This document shows, piece after piece, positions 185-62,365 of a DNA stretch of 64,000 bases (its first letter is position 1; every line of letters begins with the position of its first letter). This stretch comes from Lactobacillus hamsteri DSM 5661 = JCM 6256 (lineage in GTDB: Bacteria; Bacillota; Bacilli; Lactobacillales; Lactobacillaceae), in the NCBI RefSeq assembly GCF_000615445.1, contig NZ_BALY01000007.1, positions 1 to 64,000 of the forward strand, read 5' to 3'. The position numbers and the translations under genes were made by a program. A model generated the notes under the pieces. It was not told where the DNA came from and made no database searches. It worked only from the letters and a program-made list of their open reading frames with translations.

Positions 185-269
185 AGAACAGTTATTATTA
201 TAGCAAATGGATACAACTTTGCAATACCTTTTTTAAAAAAATTAAAAATATATTTTCTAAAAAAGAACA

Positions 270-300
270 ACAAAAACGGCTCGCATATGTGAGCCGTTTT
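270..300 (-). terminator. Terminator of the upstream tRNA-Gly copy
   Basis: The inverted repeat ACGGCTC...GAGCCGT (276-297) is followed by TTTTTG on the minus strand, between the two tRNA copies. Each tRNA therefore has its own terminator. Confidence 0.8.
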
Positions 301-308
301 ATTCTGGA

Positions 309-379
309 GCGGAAGACGGGATTCGAACCCGCGACCCCCACCATGGCAAGGTGATGTTCTACCACTGAACTACTTCCGC
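309..379 (-). tRNA. tRNA-Gly (GCC anticodon), copy 2
   Basis: This is the same 71-nt cloverleaf as the copy at 114-184, with anticodon GCC and no encoded CCA. It is the promoter-proximal copy, because transcription runs right to left. Confidence 0.97.
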
Positions 380-442
380 AATACAAAAAGCATTATAACA
401 AAGATCAATTTCTTTGCAAATACTTTTTAAAAAAACATTTAA

Positions 443-1369
443 TTACTTAACATCAAAAAAATAATTATCAAAAGTCAAACTTAAGTCTACCTTAATATTG
501 CCATTACCATTTCTGGAATTTTTTGGTACTTTAATTTCACCAACTGTATCTCCGTCTTTGTCTACAAGTTGATAATTTCTGTTTCTCTTACTTGGCTTAA
601 AATTGTTAACCTTCATATGTGCTTTAAAGTCATATTCATTAACTGGTAACTTTCCCTTATGTGAAAGCCATGATCTAATTTTATTCTTTTGTTTTACATC
701 AGACTTAGTTAAAGAAATTCTACTTGAAATAAATCTAGGCTTTCTGCCAATAAAACTTGATTTTGCTACATTTTTTCCTTTAGTCTTTAAAGTTAAATTC
801 TTTAAGAAAATATTTTTAACCTGTTTTACTGAATATGGTGAAGCGGGATCATGGTCATAATCTTTATGTGATAAAATTTTTATTCCATTTTCATCACATT
901 TAACCTTGATAACCCCAAAGCCATATCCGCTATTTTTACCTGCTGGGATATTCACAGTTCCTGTAGTAGCCGCATTAATTTCTGCATTTGTCTTAGGGTT
1001 ATTAACAGTCGTATAGAAGGTAAGTTTCAAATTTTGATTATTTGGTTTCTTCCAATTGCAGGTATACATTTCATTCCCGATCGTATAAGTCCCATAAGGC
1101 ATATGATTAAAATCATGATAATGCCTATTGTAAATAACGAAGGTACTTTCGTACCAATCAGCAACTTCTGATTCTTTAAGAATATCGGCTGGAGCATCAT
1201 TTTTTAACAATCCACGTTGGTTAAACATATCATTTATCAATTTTGAAGATGATTCATGATAATCTTCTTCCTCACCATCAGCCTTAATGTTTTGATTAGT
1301 AATAACTCCAACAGCAATTAAACTAAAAAAGAAAACTGAAGCTAAAAAAGCTATCTTTTTAAATTTCAT
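443..1369 (-). CDS. Secreted protein of unknown function
   Basis: A 308-residue protein that I do not recognise. It starts with a classical signal peptide: basic MKFKK, a hydrophobic core to about residue 24, and likely cleavage near residue 30 (KADGEEED). The rest is hydrophilic and basic. Residues about 60-150 are rich in Tyr, Asn and Gly, and the C-terminal third is Lys/Asn-rich. No LPXTG motif, SLAP repeat or catalytic motif is evident, so it is probably released or held by charge. The start is supported by GGGAGGAG upstream of the ATG. The gene stands alone between the tRNAs and the lysS terminator. No function is assigned. Confidence 0.75.
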   Translation of the reverse strand: MKFKKIAFLASVFFFSLIAVGVITNQNIKADGEEEDYHESSSKLINDMFNQRGLLKNDAPADILKESEVADWYESTFVIYNRHYHDFNHMPYGTYTIGNEMYTCNWKKPNNQNLKLTFYTTVNNPKTNAEINAATTGTVNIPAGKNSGYGFGVIKVKCDENGIKILSHKDYDHDPASPYSVKQVKNIFLKNLTLKTKGKNVAKSSFIGRKPRFISSRISLTKSDVKQKNKIRSWLSHKGKLPVNEYDFKAHMKVNNFKPSKRNRNYQLVDKDGDTVGEIKVPKNSRNGNGNIKVDLSLTFDNYFFDVK

Positions 1370-1449
1370 AATTTTACTCCTCCCAATCTCGTTTATTATA
1401 TCACCATGCTATTTTGCGAAAAATATAGAATTACCTAATTTTCAAAACA

Positions 1450-1490
1450 AAAAAGACTCTTATCTATTTCACCATAGATAAGAGTCAACT
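1450..1490 (-). terminator. lysS terminator
   Basis: A 13-bp perfect stem (GACTCTTATCTAT / ATAGATAAGAGTC, 1455-1486) is followed by TTTTTTG on the minus strand, just after the lysS stop. Confidence 0.9.
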
Positions 1491-1510
1491 ATTATTTAAA
1501 AAATATTTTA

Positions 1511-4094
<2,584 letters not shown>

Positions 4095-20638: not shown

Positions 20639-20739
20639 AATTCATTTCTCCTTTTGCCATGATCATCTTTCAGATCATAGATTAATCGATTAACAGCACA
20701 TAGGATACCATTTTCAATGCTTTATTTCAAGATCTTTTC

Positions 20740-21603
20740 CTATTTTCCTTGCTTTAAAATGTCGCTTGGCCTAATTTCTTTACCAAAGTAAGGCTTTAAT
20801 TCCTTATTGTAATCATAGGTGAAGAAACTTTCGCGGTTTAATTTATCAATTTCATGATTCATCCAATTTTGAAGAGACTTGTTTCCTCTTTTTACAGCTG
20901 GGGAAATATATTGATTTGGTCCAATATTTTTAATACCTACCGTAAATTTAGGATTGCGTTTTACCCATGCATAAAGATATGAATTATCATCAGCAAGTGC
21001 CGCACCACGATCATTTTTAATTGCATTAAATTGTTGGGTCTTAGAATCAAATTTAAGCAAACCTACGCCTTTTTGGCTAGTAAAGTAATTTTCGGCCGTT
21101 GTCCCTTTAGTTACGATAACATTCTTGCCTTGCAATTGTTTTGCGCTAGTAATTGGTGCTCTTTTAGGCGAGATAACACCTACGGAGACCTTCATGTACG
21201 GCTTGGCCCAAGAAACAACTTTTTTACGTTCTGGCGTAACGGTAAAATTAGCCAAAATCATATCAGCTTTATTTGAATTCAAAGTATCCACACGATTGTT
21301 AGCATTAACTTGAACAAAGCGAACTTTAACGCCTAGATCTTTTGCAACTCTACGTGCCAAACGCACATCATACCCAACGCGTTTTCCTTGTGAGTTAACC
21401 CAACCGTACGGTGGCAAATCGCCAAAAACGGCAATGCGAATATAACCGCGACGCTTAATTGAAGAAACATTATTTTCATTATTCCATCTGCTTCCAGATG
21501 CCGATCCATTAAGTCCCGGCTGCGTAATTCCAAAGAAAGCCGCTGTCGCAATCACTAATACAGCCAGGATGCCCATTATCCAATTAAAAATCTTTTTCGT
21601 CAT
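20740..21603 (-). CDS. Cysteine-type ABC transporter substrate-binding protein (CjaA-like)
   Basis: A 287-residue extracytoplasmic solute receptor of the polar amino acid family. The N-terminus is an uncleaved anchor or signal segment (about 7-28). No lipobox Cys is present, which is unusual for a Gram-positive receptor. Landmarks are IRIAVFGDLPPYGWV, GYDVRLARRVAKDLG, NRVDTLNSNKADMILANFT and TKGTTAENYF. These closely recall Campylobacter CjaA, a cysteine-binding protein. The protein contains no Cys at all. It is the last gene of the four-gene operon behind the Cys leader. The cysteine or cystine substrate is inferred from family resemblance and the leader. Confidence 0.85.
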   Translation of the reverse strand: MTKKIFNWIMGILAVLVIATAAFFGITQPGLNGSASGSRWNNENNVSSIKRRGYIRIAVFGDLPPYGWVNSQGKRVGYDVRLARRVAKDLGVKVRFVQVNANNRVDTLNSNKADMILANFTVTPERKKVVSWAKPYMKVSVGVISPKRAPITSAKQLQGKNVIVTKGTTAENYFTSQKGVGLLKFDSKTQQFNAIKNDRGAALADDNSYLYAWVKRNPKFTVGIKNIGPNQYISPAVKRGNKSLQNWMNHEIDKLNRESFFTYDYNKELKPYFGKEIRPSDILKQGK

Positions 21604-21615
21604 TTTATTTTTCCT

Positions 21616-22356
21616 CTAGAAATCCATACTGTCTAAAAATTCTTGCGCACGTTTAGTTTGAGGATGAGCAAAGAATTCTTTACCTGGCGTGTCTTCCACA
21701 ATCTTGCCATCTTCTAGGAACAAAACTTCATCGGCAATCTTAGCGGCGAAATTCATTTCGTGAGTAACAATAATCATTGTCATATGCTCGTTATCGGACA
21801 ATCTTTGAATAATTTCTAAAACGCCACGCACCATTTCTGGATCAAGAGAGGCTGTCACTTCGTCAAAAAGCATAATTTCGGGATGCATTGCTAAAGCCCG
21901 TACAATAGCAATTCGTTGTTTTTGACCACCAGAAAGTTCCCGAGGATATGCATCTGCATAATCGGCTAACTCTACTTGTCCTAGAAGCTTTTGCGCTTCC
22001 TTGCGAACTTCATCTTCATTTCTTTTTTGCACCTTAACTGGAGCCAAAAGAATATTTTCCATAACAGTTAAATTAGGAAACAAATCATAGCTTTGGAAAA
22101 CCATGCCAATCTTTTGGCGAAGAGCTTGCCACTGCTTAGGACTAGGATTTATTTCTTTACCATGAAAATAAATTTTTCCATCTTCATAATCTTCAAGTCC
22201 ATTCAAAGTTCTCAAAAGCGTACTCTTACCTGAGCCGGATGGACCAAGCAAAGTTAAGACTTCGCCTTTTTTCAAACTAAAATTAATATCATGAAGTGCT
22301 TGCCAGTTACCATAAAACTTATTTAAATGTTCAACTTTTAAAATTTCTTCTGTCAT
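21616..22356 (-). CDS. Amino acid ABC transporter ATP-binding protein (probable cysteine importer)
   Basis: Energises the importer formed with the two permeases. The ATG at 22356 (246 aa) is preferred over the GTG nine bases upstream, because TAGGTGA lies 6 nt ahead of it. Walker A GPSGSGKS, Q-loop FQSYDLFPNLT, signature LSGGQKQR, Walker B LFDEVTASLDPE and switch HEMNFA are all present. No Cys residues. It is followed after 12 nt by the substrate-binding protein gene. Confidence 0.92.
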   Translation of the reverse strand: MTEEILKVEHLNKFYGNWQALHDINFSLKKGEVLTLLGPSGSGKSTLLRTLNGLEDYEDGKIYFHGKEINPSPKQWQALRQKIGMVFQSYDLFPNLTVMENILLAPVKVQKRNEDEVRKEAQKLLGQVELADYADAYPRELSGGQKQRIAIVRALAMHPEIMLFDEVTASLDPEMVRGVLEIIQRLSDNEHMTMIIVTHEMNFAAKIADEVLFLEDGKIVEDTPGKEFFAHPQTKRAQEFLDSMDF

Positions 22357-22365
22357 ATTTCTCAC

Positions 22366-23040
22366 CTATTTTTGCTTAGCTGTTAAACGTTTAGCCCATG
22401 CGGACAATGGATAATCCAAAATGAAATACAAAATAAAGATAAAACCGTAAACCCAGAAAACTCCGGTTGGGTATTGTTGGTTATTTGCTTCGATTATTTG
22501 CTGACCAACGTTGATAACTTCCATAATATTGATAATCATTAAAAGCGAAGTTGTTTTAATTACTCTTGTTGCTAAATTAATCGTTGCCGGAAGCTCTAAT
22601 TTAAATGCCTGTGGAATCAGCACATAACGGAAAAGCTGCAAACGACTAAGTCCTAAAGCCATCCCCGATTCACGCTGATTTTTTGGCACAGATTCAATTG
22701 CCCCACGGACAATATCACTAAATTCTGCACCCACCCAAAGAGCAAATGCCAAAACCGACATCCAGGTTGCTGGCCAATTAACGTGAAGGCTTCTTGGCAA
22801 AATATAGTAAACCAGGTAAAGCAAAACTACAGTTGGCACTATTCTAAAAAATTCCAAATAGATGCGTAAAATAAAGCGAACAGGTCGATTCTTCAATGTT
22901 CTTAAAACACCAAAAATTGTTCCAATTGCCAAACCGATAATAAGTGCTAAAACTGCGATCCAAGTTGAAGTCCAAAGTCCTGCCATTAACCGAGCAAAGT
23001 TGCGTCCTTCGAATAAAACATTAATCCCCGAATGAAGCAT
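22366..23040 (-). CDS. Amino acid ABC transporter permease
   Basis: A 224-residue His/Glu-type inner permease. The start at 23040 is chosen because AAGGAGAG precedes this ATG, while the in-frame TTG 18 nt upstream lies before the ribosome site. About five membrane spans. The EAA loop is GAIESVPKNQRESGMALGLSRLQLFRYVLIPQA. No Cys residues. It overlaps the upstream permease gene by 20 nt, indicating translational coupling and a heterodimeric channel. Confidence 0.92.
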   Translation of the reverse strand: MLHSGINVLFEGRNFARLMAGLWTSTWIAVLALIIGLAIGTIFGVLRTLKNRPVRFILRIYLEFFRIVPTVVLLYLVYYILPRSLHVNWPATWMSVLAFALWVGAEFSDIVRGAIESVPKNQRESGMALGLSRLQLFRYVLIPQAFKLELPATINLATRVIKTTSLLMIINIMEVINVGQQIIEANNQQYPTGVFWVYGFIFILYFILDYPLSAWAKRLTAKQK

Positions 23041-23680
23041 AACGTACTCTCCTTTCAAGCCAATTTAAAACTAAAATTACCGGAATTAAGATGATTGCAT
23101 AAGCAACCACAAGCATAAATAAATATTCGTTAGAACGGTAATACATTCCGATCAAATCCAAAGCAGTATTAGTCAACTCTGGAATCGCAATAACTGAAAA
23201 AATTGATGTTTCTTTTATTAAGAAAACAATATTGGCAGTCAAAGCCGGCATGCTTAAACTAAAGCCTTGTGGAAAAACGACGTATCTTGCCAGTTGCAAA
23301 TTGTTCATTCCTAAGGCCTTGCCACTGCTGATTTGACTTGAGCTAACACCATTAAATCCGCCTGTAAATCCTTCGGCCATATAAGCTCCGCCTAAAAAAA
23401 TCAGGCCCACAATACCGCAGACTTCTGCCGACATTTTTAATCCAAATACTGGAAAAGCGTAATACAAAAAGAATAATTGAATTAACAATGGAGTATTTCG
23501 CGCTACTTCTACGTAGGCCGTGAAAATTTGACTAAGTACCGGCACTTTAAAATATTGAATTAAACTTGTAATTATCCCCACAATTATCGAGCCAATGATT
23601 CCAATTAACGATAGCCATAAAGTCAGTTCAAAGCCTTTGGCAAAAACTGGCAAAGCTTGCTGGATGACTGTCCAACTCAT
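23021..23680 (-). CDS. Amino acid ABC transporter permease, first gene of the cysteine-type operon
   Basis: A 219-residue His/Glu-type permease. The ATG at 23680 is preceded by GAGGAGA. The longer frame begins inside the terminator tail and is rejected. Membrane spans cluster at about 17-40, 55-80, 85-105 and 185-210. The EAA loop is GVSSSQISSGKALGMNNLQLARYVVFPQG. It contains the only Cys (SAEVCGIVG) of the whole transporter. Its ATG is only about 30 nt from the second terminator, leaving no space for a separate promoter, so transcription must read through from the leader. Confidence 0.92.
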   Translation of the reverse strand: MSWTVIQQALPVFAKGFELTLWLSLIGIIGSIIVGIITSLIQYFKVPVLSQIFTAYVEVARNTPLLIQLFFLYYAFPVFGLKMSAEVCGIVGLIFLGGAYMAEGFTGGFNGVSSSQISSGKALGMNNLQLARYVVFPQGFSLSMPALTANIVFLIKETSIFSVIAIPELTNTALDLIGMYYRSNEYLFMLVVAYAIILIPVILVLNWLERRVRYASFGD

Positions 23681-23707
23681 GTTATGTCTCCTCTCAACAA
23701 CAAACAA

Positions 23708-23786
23708 AAAAGGGACCTAATCATAGGTCCCTTTTATCAAAAGCATTAAAAAAGATCTACGAGATTTCAGCTCTCGCAGATCTTTT
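23708..23786 (-). terminator. Two tandem intrinsic terminators between the Cys leader and the ABC operon
   Basis: In minus-strand order, the first hairpin is AGATCTGCGAGA-GCTGAAA-TCTCGTAGATCT followed by T6 (about 23752-23786; 12 bp with one wobble). The second is AGGGACCTA-TGAT-TAGGTCCCT followed by T6 (about 23710-23735). Both are strong U-tract terminators. No T-box consensus precedes them. With the leader ORF ending about 24 nt before the first stem, this is an attenuator layout. Confidence 0.85.
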
Positions 23787-23808
23787 TGCTTTTTAGATCA
23801 ATCTTAAA

Positions 23809-23913
23809 TTAAACAGAAATACGAAAACTGAATTTTTGAGCATGTGAAATAAACTTGCAACAAGCACAAGTACAACAGTTAGTATTTACGTTCATCATGT
23901 TAACTAAATTCAT
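23809..23913 (-). CDS. Cysteine-rich leader peptide (34 aa), candidate attenuator ORF
   Basis: A short ORF too small for standard gene callers. It has a near-ideal ribosome site (AAAGGAG, 8 nt from ATG) and a sigma-A promoter (TTGACA-17-TATATT) just upstream. The peptide begins MNLVNMMNVNTN and then carries five Cys in seven residues (CCTCACC, residues 13-19). It ends after 34 residues with TAA. Two intrinsic terminators follow, then a CjaA-like cysteine ABC transporter. The layout matches leader peptides that sense one amino acid by ribosome stalling. Low Cys-tRNA would stall the ribosome and favour read-through. That mechanism is inference. An independent small Cys-rich peptide is the alternative. 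Confidence 0.75.
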   Translation of the reverse strand: MNLVNMMNVNTNCCTCACCKFISHAQKFSFRISV

Positions 23914-23974
23914 TTTCCGTACTCCTTTCTAAAAATATAACTTATTTGAAGTAAGTTACTTATTAACTGTAACC

Positions 23975-24003
23975 AATATATAATTTTGCTTACTTATTGT
24001 CAA
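23975..24003 (-). promoter_or_regulatory. Promoter of the Cys leader and ABC transporter operon
   Basis: TTGACA (23998-24003), a 17-nt spacer and TATATT (23975-23980) on the minus strand. AATAAGT occurs three times around and downstream of the promoter. The palindromes AAGTAA-C-TTACTT and TAACTTA...TAAGTTA lie in the first transcribed ~40 nt. These could be operator sites or a 5' stem-loop. Confidence 0.8.
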
Positions 24004-24037: not shown

Positions 24038-25642
24038 TTACTTTTGCTTATCATTGATCCGACCATTTACTTTTTCCGCATATGCATCAATCTTCTTAAG
24101 ACTGCTGTTAACGCCCCAGAAGTAGAAAATCAATGAAACGATAATGATTAAAACAAAATCAAATGGATATTTAATCCAGTTTTGCCCGCCGAAGCCATCG
24201 CTACCCATATAAGACATGAGTGAAATAAAAATCATATAAATAATTAGCCACCATGCATGTCTTAGTTGTTCTTTCAGATTAGAATGCTGATATTTTACTT
24301 CGTAATAAATATAAATCGGCAGCCCCAAAGCGATAACAAAGATAACTTGCACGGTTGTTGGCCACATTGACCAATAAATTGCTAAACTCGTTAAAACAAA
24401 AGCTGCAGGTGCAAGCCACTTCATATATCTTGGACCAAATGGTCTTTTTAAGTTTGGACTAATCTTGCGAAGTGCGATAACTGTTACGGGGCCAGTCAGA
24501 TAGGCAATCAAAGTTGAAGCTGCAATAACTGTTGCCAGCAAATTCCAATTTCTAAACACACTAACCAAAATTACCGCTAAAACGAAATCAGTAATCATCG
24601 CAAAACGCGGAATCATATATTTACGGTTAAGTCTTCCCAGCCAGCTTGGCAAATGCTTAGTGTGCGTCATTGCTGCCAAAGCTCGTGAAGCTGTCGCAAC
24701 AAAGGCCACACCTGTTCCAAATGGTGAAACAAAGGCATCAAGATAGAGTAAAATCACCAGCCAATTAATGCCTAAAATAATCGCAATATCCGCAAATGGT
24801 GATGTAAAGTTGATGCCATGCCAGCCTACTTTGGCTAAAGTTGCCGGCTCAATTGCTCCAATAAAAGTTACCTGCAACAAAATATAAATAATTGCAGTAA
24901 TAATCATGGAAATCAAAACCCCACGCACAATATTTTTGCGTGGATTTTTTAATTCTCCACCCATATTGATAACTGTTTGAAAGGCATCGTACGACATGAT
25001 AATCCCTGAAACCGAAGTTGCTTCAAAAATTGATCTTGATCCATATGGCATAAATTCATGCAAATTAGTTCCAAAGTTTTGAACATGGAAACCACTATAA
25101 ACTAAAGTGATAATTGTTAAAGTTGGAAGCAAAATTTTGAAAACCGAGATCAAATTTGTGAAATGCGTCATCAATTTAACTGACCAATAATTAATCAGTG
25201 TAAAAACGAGCATGAAGACAAAAACAACAAACAAACCTTGGGTTGTTATATTGCCTTTTTCCATAAAATGTCTTGTCCAATTTGCCCAGGACCATGGCCA
25301 TGACGACATATATTGAACAGCAGCCACAGCCTCCATTGGTACTAAAGTAATCAATGAAATCCAATTTGCCCAAGCCGCAATAAAACCTAAAAGCGGTCCA
25401 TGACTGTATTGCGCATAGCGACTCATTCCGCCACTTTCCGGAAACATTGATCCTAATTCAATGTAGGTCATCGCAATCGCAATAATAATGACGGCACCTA
25501 AAATCCAAGAAAGAATCGCAGCTGGACCAGCAATCCGGGCAGCTGAGCCTGATCCAAACAGCCAGCCCGATCCAATTAATGAATTGAGGGCCAACATTAC
25601 AGCAGAAAATAATCCTATTTTATGTACTTTTAATTTATCCAA
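24038..25642 (-). CDS. APC-family amino acid permease
   Basis: A 534-residue polytopic membrane protein with about 12-14 spans. The N-terminus has the APC signature GLFSAVMLALNSLIGSGWLFGSG, and residues around SYDAFQTVINMGGELKNPRKNI match the amino acid/polyamine/organocation superfamily. The start is a TTG (25640-25642) with AAGGA just upstream. It lies 44 nt after glyA with no visible terminator between, so glyA-permease co-transcription is likely. No terminator is evident before the Cys-leader promoter either. The substrate cannot be told from sequence alone. Confidence 0.88.
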   Translation of the reverse strand: MDKLKVHKIGLFSAVMLALNSLIGSGWLFGSGSAARIAGPAAILSWILGAVIIIAIAMTYIELGSMFPESGGMSRYAQYSHGPLLGFIAAWANWISLITLVPMEAVAAVQYMSSWPWSWANWTRHFMEKGNITTQGLFVVFVFMLVFTLINYWSVKLMTHFTNLISVFKILLPTLTIITLVYSGFHVQNFGTNLHEFMPYGSRSIFEATSVSGIIMSYDAFQTVINMGGELKNPRKNIVRGVLISMIITAIIYILLQVTFIGAIEPATLAKVGWHGINFTSPFADIAIILGINWLVILLYLDAFVSPFGTGVAFVATASRALAAMTHTKHLPSWLGRLNRKYMIPRFAMITDFVLAVILVSVFRNWNLLATVIAASTLIAYLTGPVTVIALRKISPNLKRPFGPRYMKWLAPAAFVLTSLAIYWSMWPTTVQVIFVIALGLPIYIYYEVKYQHSNLKEQLRHAWWLIIYMIFISLMSYMGSDGFGGQNWIKYPFDFVLIIIVSLIFYFWGVNSSLKKIDAYAEKVNGRINDKQK

Positions 25643-33010: not shown

Positions 33011-33136
33011 AATGCGTTCCTCCTAATAAAAATTATCAGGAAAGATGGACATCCTAGGAGGAAGGTTACTGATATAAAGTTAAGATTATATATCCGGACT
33101 ACCAACCGAATCGTGTTTTTACTTTCCTTAGAGGAA
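33011..33136 (-). promoter_or_regulatory. Candidate yjdF riboswitch with Shine-Dalgarno sequestration
   Basis: The yjdF leader is about 125 nt. The ribosome site TAGGAGGAA (plus coordinates 33017-33025) has an exact 9-nt complement, TTCCTCCTA, 29 nt upstream (33055-33063). Pairing would hide it. An upstream structured segment (around 33070-33110) could compete. Location before a yjdF gene supports the known yjdF motif RNA. I could not check its consensus. Confidence 0.6.
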
Positions 33137-37304: not shown

Positions 37305-37325
37305 CAAAGGCAACAAAATTAACAA

Positions 37326-37450
37326 ATCTATATATCGTCGTAATAAGGTCGACAGTTTCTACCTAGAACCGTAAATTCTAGACTATAGTCAAAAAAGTTG
37401 CTGAAAATAACAGGACCTTTTTACTTAGTTTCTAGGTAGAAAGGTCCTTA
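37326..37450 (+). promoter_or_regulatory. Guanine-class purine riboswitch with terminator platform
   Basis: The aptamer core GTTTCTACC...ACCGTAAAT...GACTATAG is clear. The specificity base is C (GAC), which marks the guanine/hypoxanthine class. P2 is GTCG/CGAC and P3 is CTAGA/TCTAG. The platform is a terminator AGGACCTTT...AAAGGTCCT (37412-37448). TTTCTACCTAGA (37356-37367) in the aptamer is an exact 12-nt complement of TCTAGGTAGAAA (37431-37442) in the terminator, giving the antiterminator. Ligand binding should switch the operon off. Confidence 0.93.
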
Positions 37451-62095: not shown

Positions 62096-62300
62096 AAAAA
62101 AGCCACCTACAGATCTGCAGGTGACTTCATGCCAAACAAGGCTTCTCGATACTCGTCGTTCAGTTTTAACACTACGTGACGTAAGCACATGCTAGCTATC
62201 TGGATCTCGCCTTAAGTCGACGACACCTATTTAACCCGTTGGCATCTCTGGATGTTTCTGGGCGATAGCGTGTGTTCACGTAGGAGTCTCACCTAACAGT
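62096..62300 (-). promoter_or_regulatory. M-box (ykoK) magnesium riboswitch
   Basis: On the minus strand the aptamer begins TTAGGTGAGACTCCTACGTG and contains CTATCGCCCAGAAAC, GAGATGCCAACGGGTTAAA and AGGTGTCG. These are the recognised M-box core segments, in order. It ends in a terminator GTCACCTGCAG...CTGTAGGTGGC plus T6 (about 62096-62126). Mg2+ binding should allow the terminator to form and shut off mgtA. Confidence 0.92.
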
Positions 62301-62365
62301 TTATTTGCTAAATTATCTATAAAAATTCTAATACTTATCTACGGTTCACGTCAAATAGAGAAAAG

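Follow-up and report, generated by a model that had tools for sequence, protein, structure and literature searches.

Why do a short ORF with a run of Cys codons and two intrinsic terminators stand between a promoter and a four-gene ABC importer operon? This arrangement is located on the minus strand of a Lactobacillus hamsteri contig, in the stretch of 64,000 nucleotides analysed here (the window). An earlier note, made from the letters of the window, had proposed that the leader peptide controls a cysteine transporter by attenuation. From the ORF, the Cys clusters which recur in relatives, the terminators and the co-varying pairings 1:2 and 2:3, all read from the sequence, we infer ribosome stalling, read-through and a response to cysteine. 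It is highly probable that the leader is a ribosome-mediated transcription attenuator which senses charged Cys-tRNA. The features, in the order of transcription, are as follows (L numbers in the text denote loci).

23975-24003, minus strand: sigma-A-type promoter TTGACA-17-TATATT, 11/12 matches; the spacer starts with ATAAGTAAG
23922-23930, minus strand: Shine-Dalgarno (SD) sequence of the leader ORF, AGAAAGGAG
23906-23925, minus strand: strand 1, ribosome-binding site and start codon of the leader; partner of strand 2
23809-23913, minus strand: 34-codon leader ORF, MNLVNMMNVNTNCCTCACCKFISHAQKFSFRISV, with its stop codon at 23811-23809
23857-23877, minus strand: Cys cluster C C T C A C C, codons 13-19, proposed stall site
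23816-23835, minus strand: strand 2, 3' end of the leader ORF, with the core UUCAGUUUUCGUA at 23832-23820; partner of strand 1 or strand 3
23749-23787, minus strand: terminator T1 (3:4), -21.2 kcal/mol
23766-23778, minus strand: strand 3, UGCGAGAGCUGAA, part of the T1 5' arm and loop; 13-bp antiterminator with strand 2
23748-23764, minus strand: strand 4, T1 3' arm and U-tract; pairing with strand 5 possible once T1 is open
23708-23735, minus strand: terminator T2 (5:6), about -18 kcal/mol
23721-23735, minus strand: strand 5, T2 5' half, AAAAGGGACCUAUGA
23688-23695, minus strand: SD sequence of the first permease
23021-23680, minus strand: amino-acid ABC permease 1, ATG start at 23680
22366-23040, minus strand: amino-acid ABC permease 2
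21616-22365, minus strand: ABC ATPase
20740-21603, minus strand: substrate-binding protein, closest to PDB 2yjp and 1xt8

With its SD sequence and start codon the leader ORF is predicted to be translatable, as befits a leader-peptide attenuator, and the intrinsic terminators T1 and T2 lie between it and the first gene. It is the sole SD-led ATG ORF of 10-60 aa with at least 4 Cys in 8 on both strands of the 64-kb window; one other SD-led ORF gets to 3 Cys in 8. In 1 kb, 4 terminator-like sites were counted versus 0.6 expected, and the leader RNA folded much better than shuffled sequences (z = -7.7). Promoter-like sites in the region were not above chance (3 versus 3.9 expected). The position of the promoter was kept in 23/29 loci (a site of at least 9/12, a spacer of 16-18, ending 30-66 nt before the leader ATG); in the window the leader ATG sits 61 nt past the -10 box. 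The sigma-A promoter, the SD-led ORF of 34 codons with five Cys in seven, the two strong intrinsic terminators and the four-gene ABC importer had all been named in the earlier note, and all were found again at the coordinates listed.

The promoter spacer carries the hexamer AGTAAG (23989-23994), a few bases past the -35 box. It recurs in 17/29 loci, and an inverted copy, ACTTA, is sometimes seen near it by eye (L025, L036). Perhaps AGTAAG is an operator for a transcription factor acting alongside the attenuator.

The distance from T2 to the permease ATG is 27 nt and includes the permease SD. Because of this there is no room for an own promoter of the operon after T2; an internal promoter downstream of the terminators, which would have spoken against attenuation, does not fit. 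The substrate-binding protein had been likened to CjaA. Among solved structures it comes closest to 2yjp (E 7e-76) and 1xt8 (E 1e-70), which we take to be Ngo2014 of Neisseria and CjaA of Campylobacter, presumably both cysteine-binding. The four-gene operon is probably a cysteine importer.

No Rfam family, the T-box RF00230 included, matched the leader locus at the gathering threshold, and no T-box was detected in contig C75 at E ≤ 0.001. Directly after the importer operon an L31 ribosomal-protein leader matched barely above cut-off (20648-20680, minus strand). The other Rfam matches in the window were an azaaromatic (yjdF) RNA at 33029-33132 (minus strand), a purine riboswitch at 37308-37405 (plus strand) and an M-box magnesium riboswitch at 62144-62307 (minus strand).

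Cys clusters ahead of related importer operons

The first permease was used as the anchor for finding relatives because the leader peptide diverges. As a protein query the leader peptide matched 12/75 genomes of the genus at E ≤ 1, its own included, and mostly weakly. With the permease 77 named loci were found. An ORF with a Cys cluster (at least 3 Cys in 8, SD present, start 100-360 nt upstream of the permease) precedes the orthologous permease in 30/77 of them. The density of such ORFs upstream of the permease is about 130 times that in the rest of the same loci, where 11 were counted in 965 kb. Among these 11 background ORFs, that of L074 is the same feature slightly farther upstream and that of L071 heads a sulfur operon, described below. 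Cys-cluster ORFs occur in Lactobacillus, in Limosilactobacillus and in Ligilactobacillus equi, and also ahead of distant homologues in MAGs of Lachnospiraceae, Solobacterium and Erysipelotrichia. The leader peptides are alike in the Cys cluster and in little else; length and remaining sequence vary freely. Clusters seen were NCCTCACC, DCCSC, ICCC, VCCQCC, NCGCCSC, KCCCSC, VCCTC and LCVCCCTCC.

The genus set consisted of 45 permease matches in 43/75 genomes, 44 of them non-own. At least 3 Cys in 8 were found in 11/44; the rest have 2, 1, 0 or no such ORF. Because named and genus loci overlap in species, 30/77 and 11/44 are not independent. The run is kept while the peptide around it changes, as expected of regulatory codons, but in far from all relatives. 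Thus the check for conserved Cys codons, put forward in the earlier note, had a divided outcome: they are kept in many loci (30/77 named loci, 11/44 genus matches) and absent or weak in the others. Clusters of two, one or none are present in a group of species including L. apis, L. melliventris and L. kullabergensis, presumably all from the bee gut, and L. johnsonii-like loci had no Cys-cluster ORF upstream of the permease.

In L105 and L112-L119 the Cys clusters go down to two, one or none and the hairpin terminator is retained. Possibly these loci are a decay series of the sensor. Some 215 nt ahead of its permease, L091 has a Cys ORF resembling the one in L092, but the sequence before the ATG (SD, promoter) is replaced; its leader may be untranslated. 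Despite the intact Cys ORF, L091 was scored as a miss in the 11/44 count since its SD/promoter region is replaced.

Alternative pairings of the leader RNA

Strand 2 has two alternative partners. With strand 3 it forms an uninterrupted helix of 13 bp, G-U pairs included, between UUCAGUUUUCGUA (23832-23820) and UGCGAGAGCUGAA (23778-23766). In the window its energy is -14.2 kcal/mol versus -4.8 ± 2.6 kcal/mol with strand 2 shuffled, and 0/200 shuffles were as good. The earlier note had found no long antiterminator and had suggested that for this reason the switching step may be new. The former was in error; as an antiterminator is present, the latter is unsupported. Of the two short pairings noticed then, TTCAG with CTGAA is the core of 2:3, whereas GATCT with AGATC is unused in the predicted antiterminator fold. 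The second partner of strand 2 is strand 1, i.e. SD and start of its own ORF, with which it pairs at -27.6 kcal/mol in the window.

Hairpin terminators follow the leader ORF in the 34 loci analysed. Removal of seven near-identical ones (L035, L044, L047, L056, L065, L066, L079) left 27 representatives. For 2:3, z was below -1 in 19/27 and above -1 in 8/27, with a mean of -1.74; the values of L020 and L040 in this count are unreliable because the second hairpin had been taken as T1. Own partners were then compared with partners swapped between species. L020 was left out, and 2:3 gave 0/2000 over 26 loci and 0/2000 over 14 diverse loci. Over 18 loci the result was 0/5000 for 2:3 and 0/5000 for 1:2. 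The swaps were repeated without L040, the T1 of which had been mis-set: 2:3 again gave 0/2000, over 25 and over 13 loci, and 1:2 and 2:3 each gave 0/5000 over 17 loci. Inside the Lactobacillus group (6 loci) the 2:3 swap was not significant (668/2000), probably because the motif is shared; inside Limosilactobacillus (10 loci) it gave 43/2000. The corresponding 1:2 swaps gave 16/5000 in the Lactobacillus group and 0/5000 in Limosilactobacillus. In L023 the own strand 1 pairs worse than swapped ones. By these comparisons, 1:2 and 2:3 co-vary between species. The predicted antiterminator, 2:3, is mutually exclusive with the terminator. The recurring Cys clusters and the co-varying 1:2 / 2:3 / 3:4 switch speak for the poly-Cys leader attenuation that had been claimed. 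Minimum-energy folds of the full length favour T1 plus T2. This is expected because an attenuator acts during transcription, and thermodynamics alone is not decisive.

The following sequence of events is proposed. With ample cysteine the ribosome would reach the leader stop codon (23811-23809) and cover most of strand 2. T1, then T2, would form and transcription would stop. When Cys-tRNA is short the ribosome would stall at codons 13-19, at codon 13 with a presumed footprint of about 23894-23863, and strand 2 would be free. It could then pair with the 5' half of T1 (2:3) while the 3' arm is still to be transcribed; T1 would be blocked and RNA polymerase would enter the importer operon. If no ribosome is loaded, strand 2 would pair with SD and start of the leader (1:2), leaving T1 intact. 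The Cys codons (23877-23857) fall between strand 1 (23925-23906) and strand 2 (23835-23816), not in strand 1; therefore, how a stall prevents 1:2 has to be inferred. Presumably the ribosome held in the loop keeps the two strands apart. Alternatively, a second ribosome, waiting behind the first at the start codon, might bar 1:2. The first Cys codon of the cluster is codon 2-14 (median 11) in the 34 loci, which would leave space for such a queue.

Could T1 and T2 just terminate transcription that comes from the amino-acid permease gene upstream (24038-25642, also minus strand), with the importer expressed by leaky read-through? In favour of this, no terminator-like site was detected from the stop of this gene (24038) to the leader promoter. 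However, the intervening stretch contains a promoter and an SD-led Cys ORF, which recur in relatives, and strand 2 co-varies with T1, for which a simple terminator has no need. The upstream permease gene was matched in just 1/77 named loci, in L036, and there about 2 kb farther upstream. We consider this explanation very improbable. A control of translation, of leader or importer, by SD sequestration in 1:2 instead of termination is hardly more attractive. Strand 1 is exactly SD and start of the leader and 1:2 is very stable; yet the SD hidden by it is that of the leader, not of the importer, and two U-tailed terminators follow, with T1 co-varying with strand 2. Least credible of all is a functional Cys-rich microprotein, e.g. 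metal-binding, in place of a sensor: SD and start are real and the Cys residues recur, yet the peptide varies freely in length and, apart from the Cys run, in sequence, the 3' codons are accounted for by RNA pairing, and the ORF is followed by hairpin terminators throughout the loci analysed.

Two terminators in series

Under Cys-tRNA-dependent attenuation, the reading favoured here, the question of the earlier note why two terminators are used in series has a candidate answer, with results for and against. The T1 3' arm (strand 4), once freed, may pair with the T2 5' half (strand 5), and both terminators would be disarmed in sequence. In such a relay strand 2 opens T1 and the released strand 4 opens T2 (2:3, then 4:5). 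We regard the relay as plausible and lean slightly against it. If true, one stall event would disarm two terminators in series, giving a very low leak with induction kept. The model turns the purpose of tandem terminators into a question which can be tested directly.

The pairing 4:5 was evaluated in 11 loci. L106 was left out, as were L091, L096 and L097, the hairpins of which repeat those of L092, L018 and L036. In the window 4:5 has -13.5 kcal/mol and 0/500 shuffles were as good. The respective numbers were 0/500 in L036, 1/500 in L018, 15/500 in L092 and 17/500 in L111. In L098, L100, L107, L109 and L110 the pairing was no better than shuffles (182 to 331 of 500). Own versus swapped partners gave 46/5000 (7 loci/types). 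The relay pairing is partly supported, i.e. in some lineages, and absent in one.

Folding was also considered by stages. When half of T2 is made, 2:3 plus 4:5 is more stable than T1 alone in 5/5 sequence types (window, -32.5 versus -25.8). Without constraints, the relay is the best fold of this stage in just L018 and L021; for the window (-34.0) and L036 (-31.2) it is the T1 state. Once T2 is complete, 2:3 plus 5:6 beats 2:3 plus 4:5 in 5/5 types (window, -39.4 versus -32.5). Because 5:6 then wins, the relay could act only kinetically, via the order of folding. There are relatives with a single terminator, e.g. L016, L034 and Limosilactobacillus loci; therefore, the switch does not generally depend on T2.

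Possibly T2 arose as a copy of T1, diverged and now serves as an uncoupled back-up, with 4:5 a leftover of the duplication. This competes with the relay only and is compatible with attenuation at T1. We give it an even chance. In L018 the two terminators can be aligned from end to end; the five loci in which 4:5 does not exceed shuffles all have two terminators; and 5:6 prevails at full length. On the other hand, T1 and T2 do not align in this manner in L108, yet 4:5 has -12.9 kcal/mol there with 48/500 shuffles as good, and own 4:5 pairs beat swapped ones. Furthermore, an uncoupled T2 would keep the operon largely off even with T1 open.

Known attenuators and other sensors of the importer operon

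Attenuators of the trp/his type operate by the logic of 1:2 / 2:3 / 3:4, and in trp the regulatory codons are in strand 1. The locus in the window appears to follow the same logic, whereas its strand 1 is SD and start of the leader, not regulatory codons, its terminators are in tandem with a possible relay, and the amino acid would be cysteine. The T-box is the common tRNA sensor in Bacillota; in contrast, the locus in the window would sense through translation and not through the binding of a tRNA.

Short ORFs with Cys runs are known elsewhere. According to two reports, mycobacterial polycysteine leaderless short ORFs (Canestrari et al., 2020) are cysteine-responsive attenuators of operons (PMC9094748, PMC13236596). 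The likeness to the window is the Cys run in a short upstream ORF. The mycobacterial ORFs are described as leaderless, whereas the window ORF is SD-led and is followed by two intrinsic terminators with a defined antiterminator. In Actinobacteria (Mycobacterium cys operon, P. acnes, B. longum cbs) Cys-run short ORFs precede cysteine genes; conserved terminator hairpins are reported as absent there and Rho is suggested (PMC1262725). The window differs from that description by its intrinsic terminators and co-varying alternatives. In uORFC-8-2, located before cysS in Rhodobacterales, Cys codons in the uORF are reported to be followed by an intrinsic terminator (PMC8632094). Two of those Cys codons are described inside the first stem, whereas the Cys codons of the window are outside T1 and T2. 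For Bacillota there are reports on His leader peptides in bacilli, where cysteine is mentioned just once, in a reference title (PMC2965389), on a leucine-rich attenuator peptide in S. aureus (PMC5794164) and on ilv in L. monocytogenes (PMC5864092). No description of a Cys leader in Lactobacillaceae or other Bacillota was met with in the literature searched, which was largely open-access. New here would be cysteine leader-peptide attenuation in Bacillota, a strand 1 which hides the SD and possibly a relay of terminators. Cysteine would thereby join the amino acids sensed by leader peptides in Bacillota.

The orthologous operon appears to have other sensors, too. In L. mucosae (L033 and the near-identical L028) and L. 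ingluviei (L054) the last two codons of the ORF ahead of the stop are Cys codons. They make up the 5' side of the terminator stem (GGCCUGUUGU, paired with ACAGCAGGCC or ACAACAGGC, followed by the U-tract); folds were computed for L028 and L054. A ribosome stalled on them would therefore itself cover this side of the stem. The three loci look nearer to uORFC-8-2, with in-stem Cys seen by fold in L028 and L054.

A T-box was detected up to 500 nt upstream of the permease in 7/20 loci scanned with Rfam, over cut-off in L061, L062 and L063 and below it in L049, L057, L059 and L086. These T-boxes precede the importer operon in Secundi-, Lenti-, Loigo- and Liquorilactobacillus. The specifier, read by eye, is UGC (Cys) in L049, L057 and L086, and this supports cysteine sensing of the importer operon. 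It is AUG (Met) in L059, L061, L062 and L063; thus, the compound which is transported or sensed may differ among loci. In the host genome 17 T-box matches were found, 7 of them over cut-off and 0 at the importer operon; among ten of the 17 alignments, which were read, there was no clear UGC specifier. With an antiterminator Cys leader, Cys codons in a terminator and T-boxes across related genera, the importer operon may provide a natural series for RNA-sensor replacement.

A further point in favour of a Cys-sensing leader comes from L071, a MAG of Oscillospiraceae, in which a poly-Cys/Met ORF (EMCMCCCMC) heads an operon of three parts at 197-3660. These are a PLP enzyme of Cys/Met metabolism (PF01053, E 4e-137), a methionine-synthase catalytic domain (PF01717, E 4e-12), the frame of which is apparently interrupted, and the importer permease.
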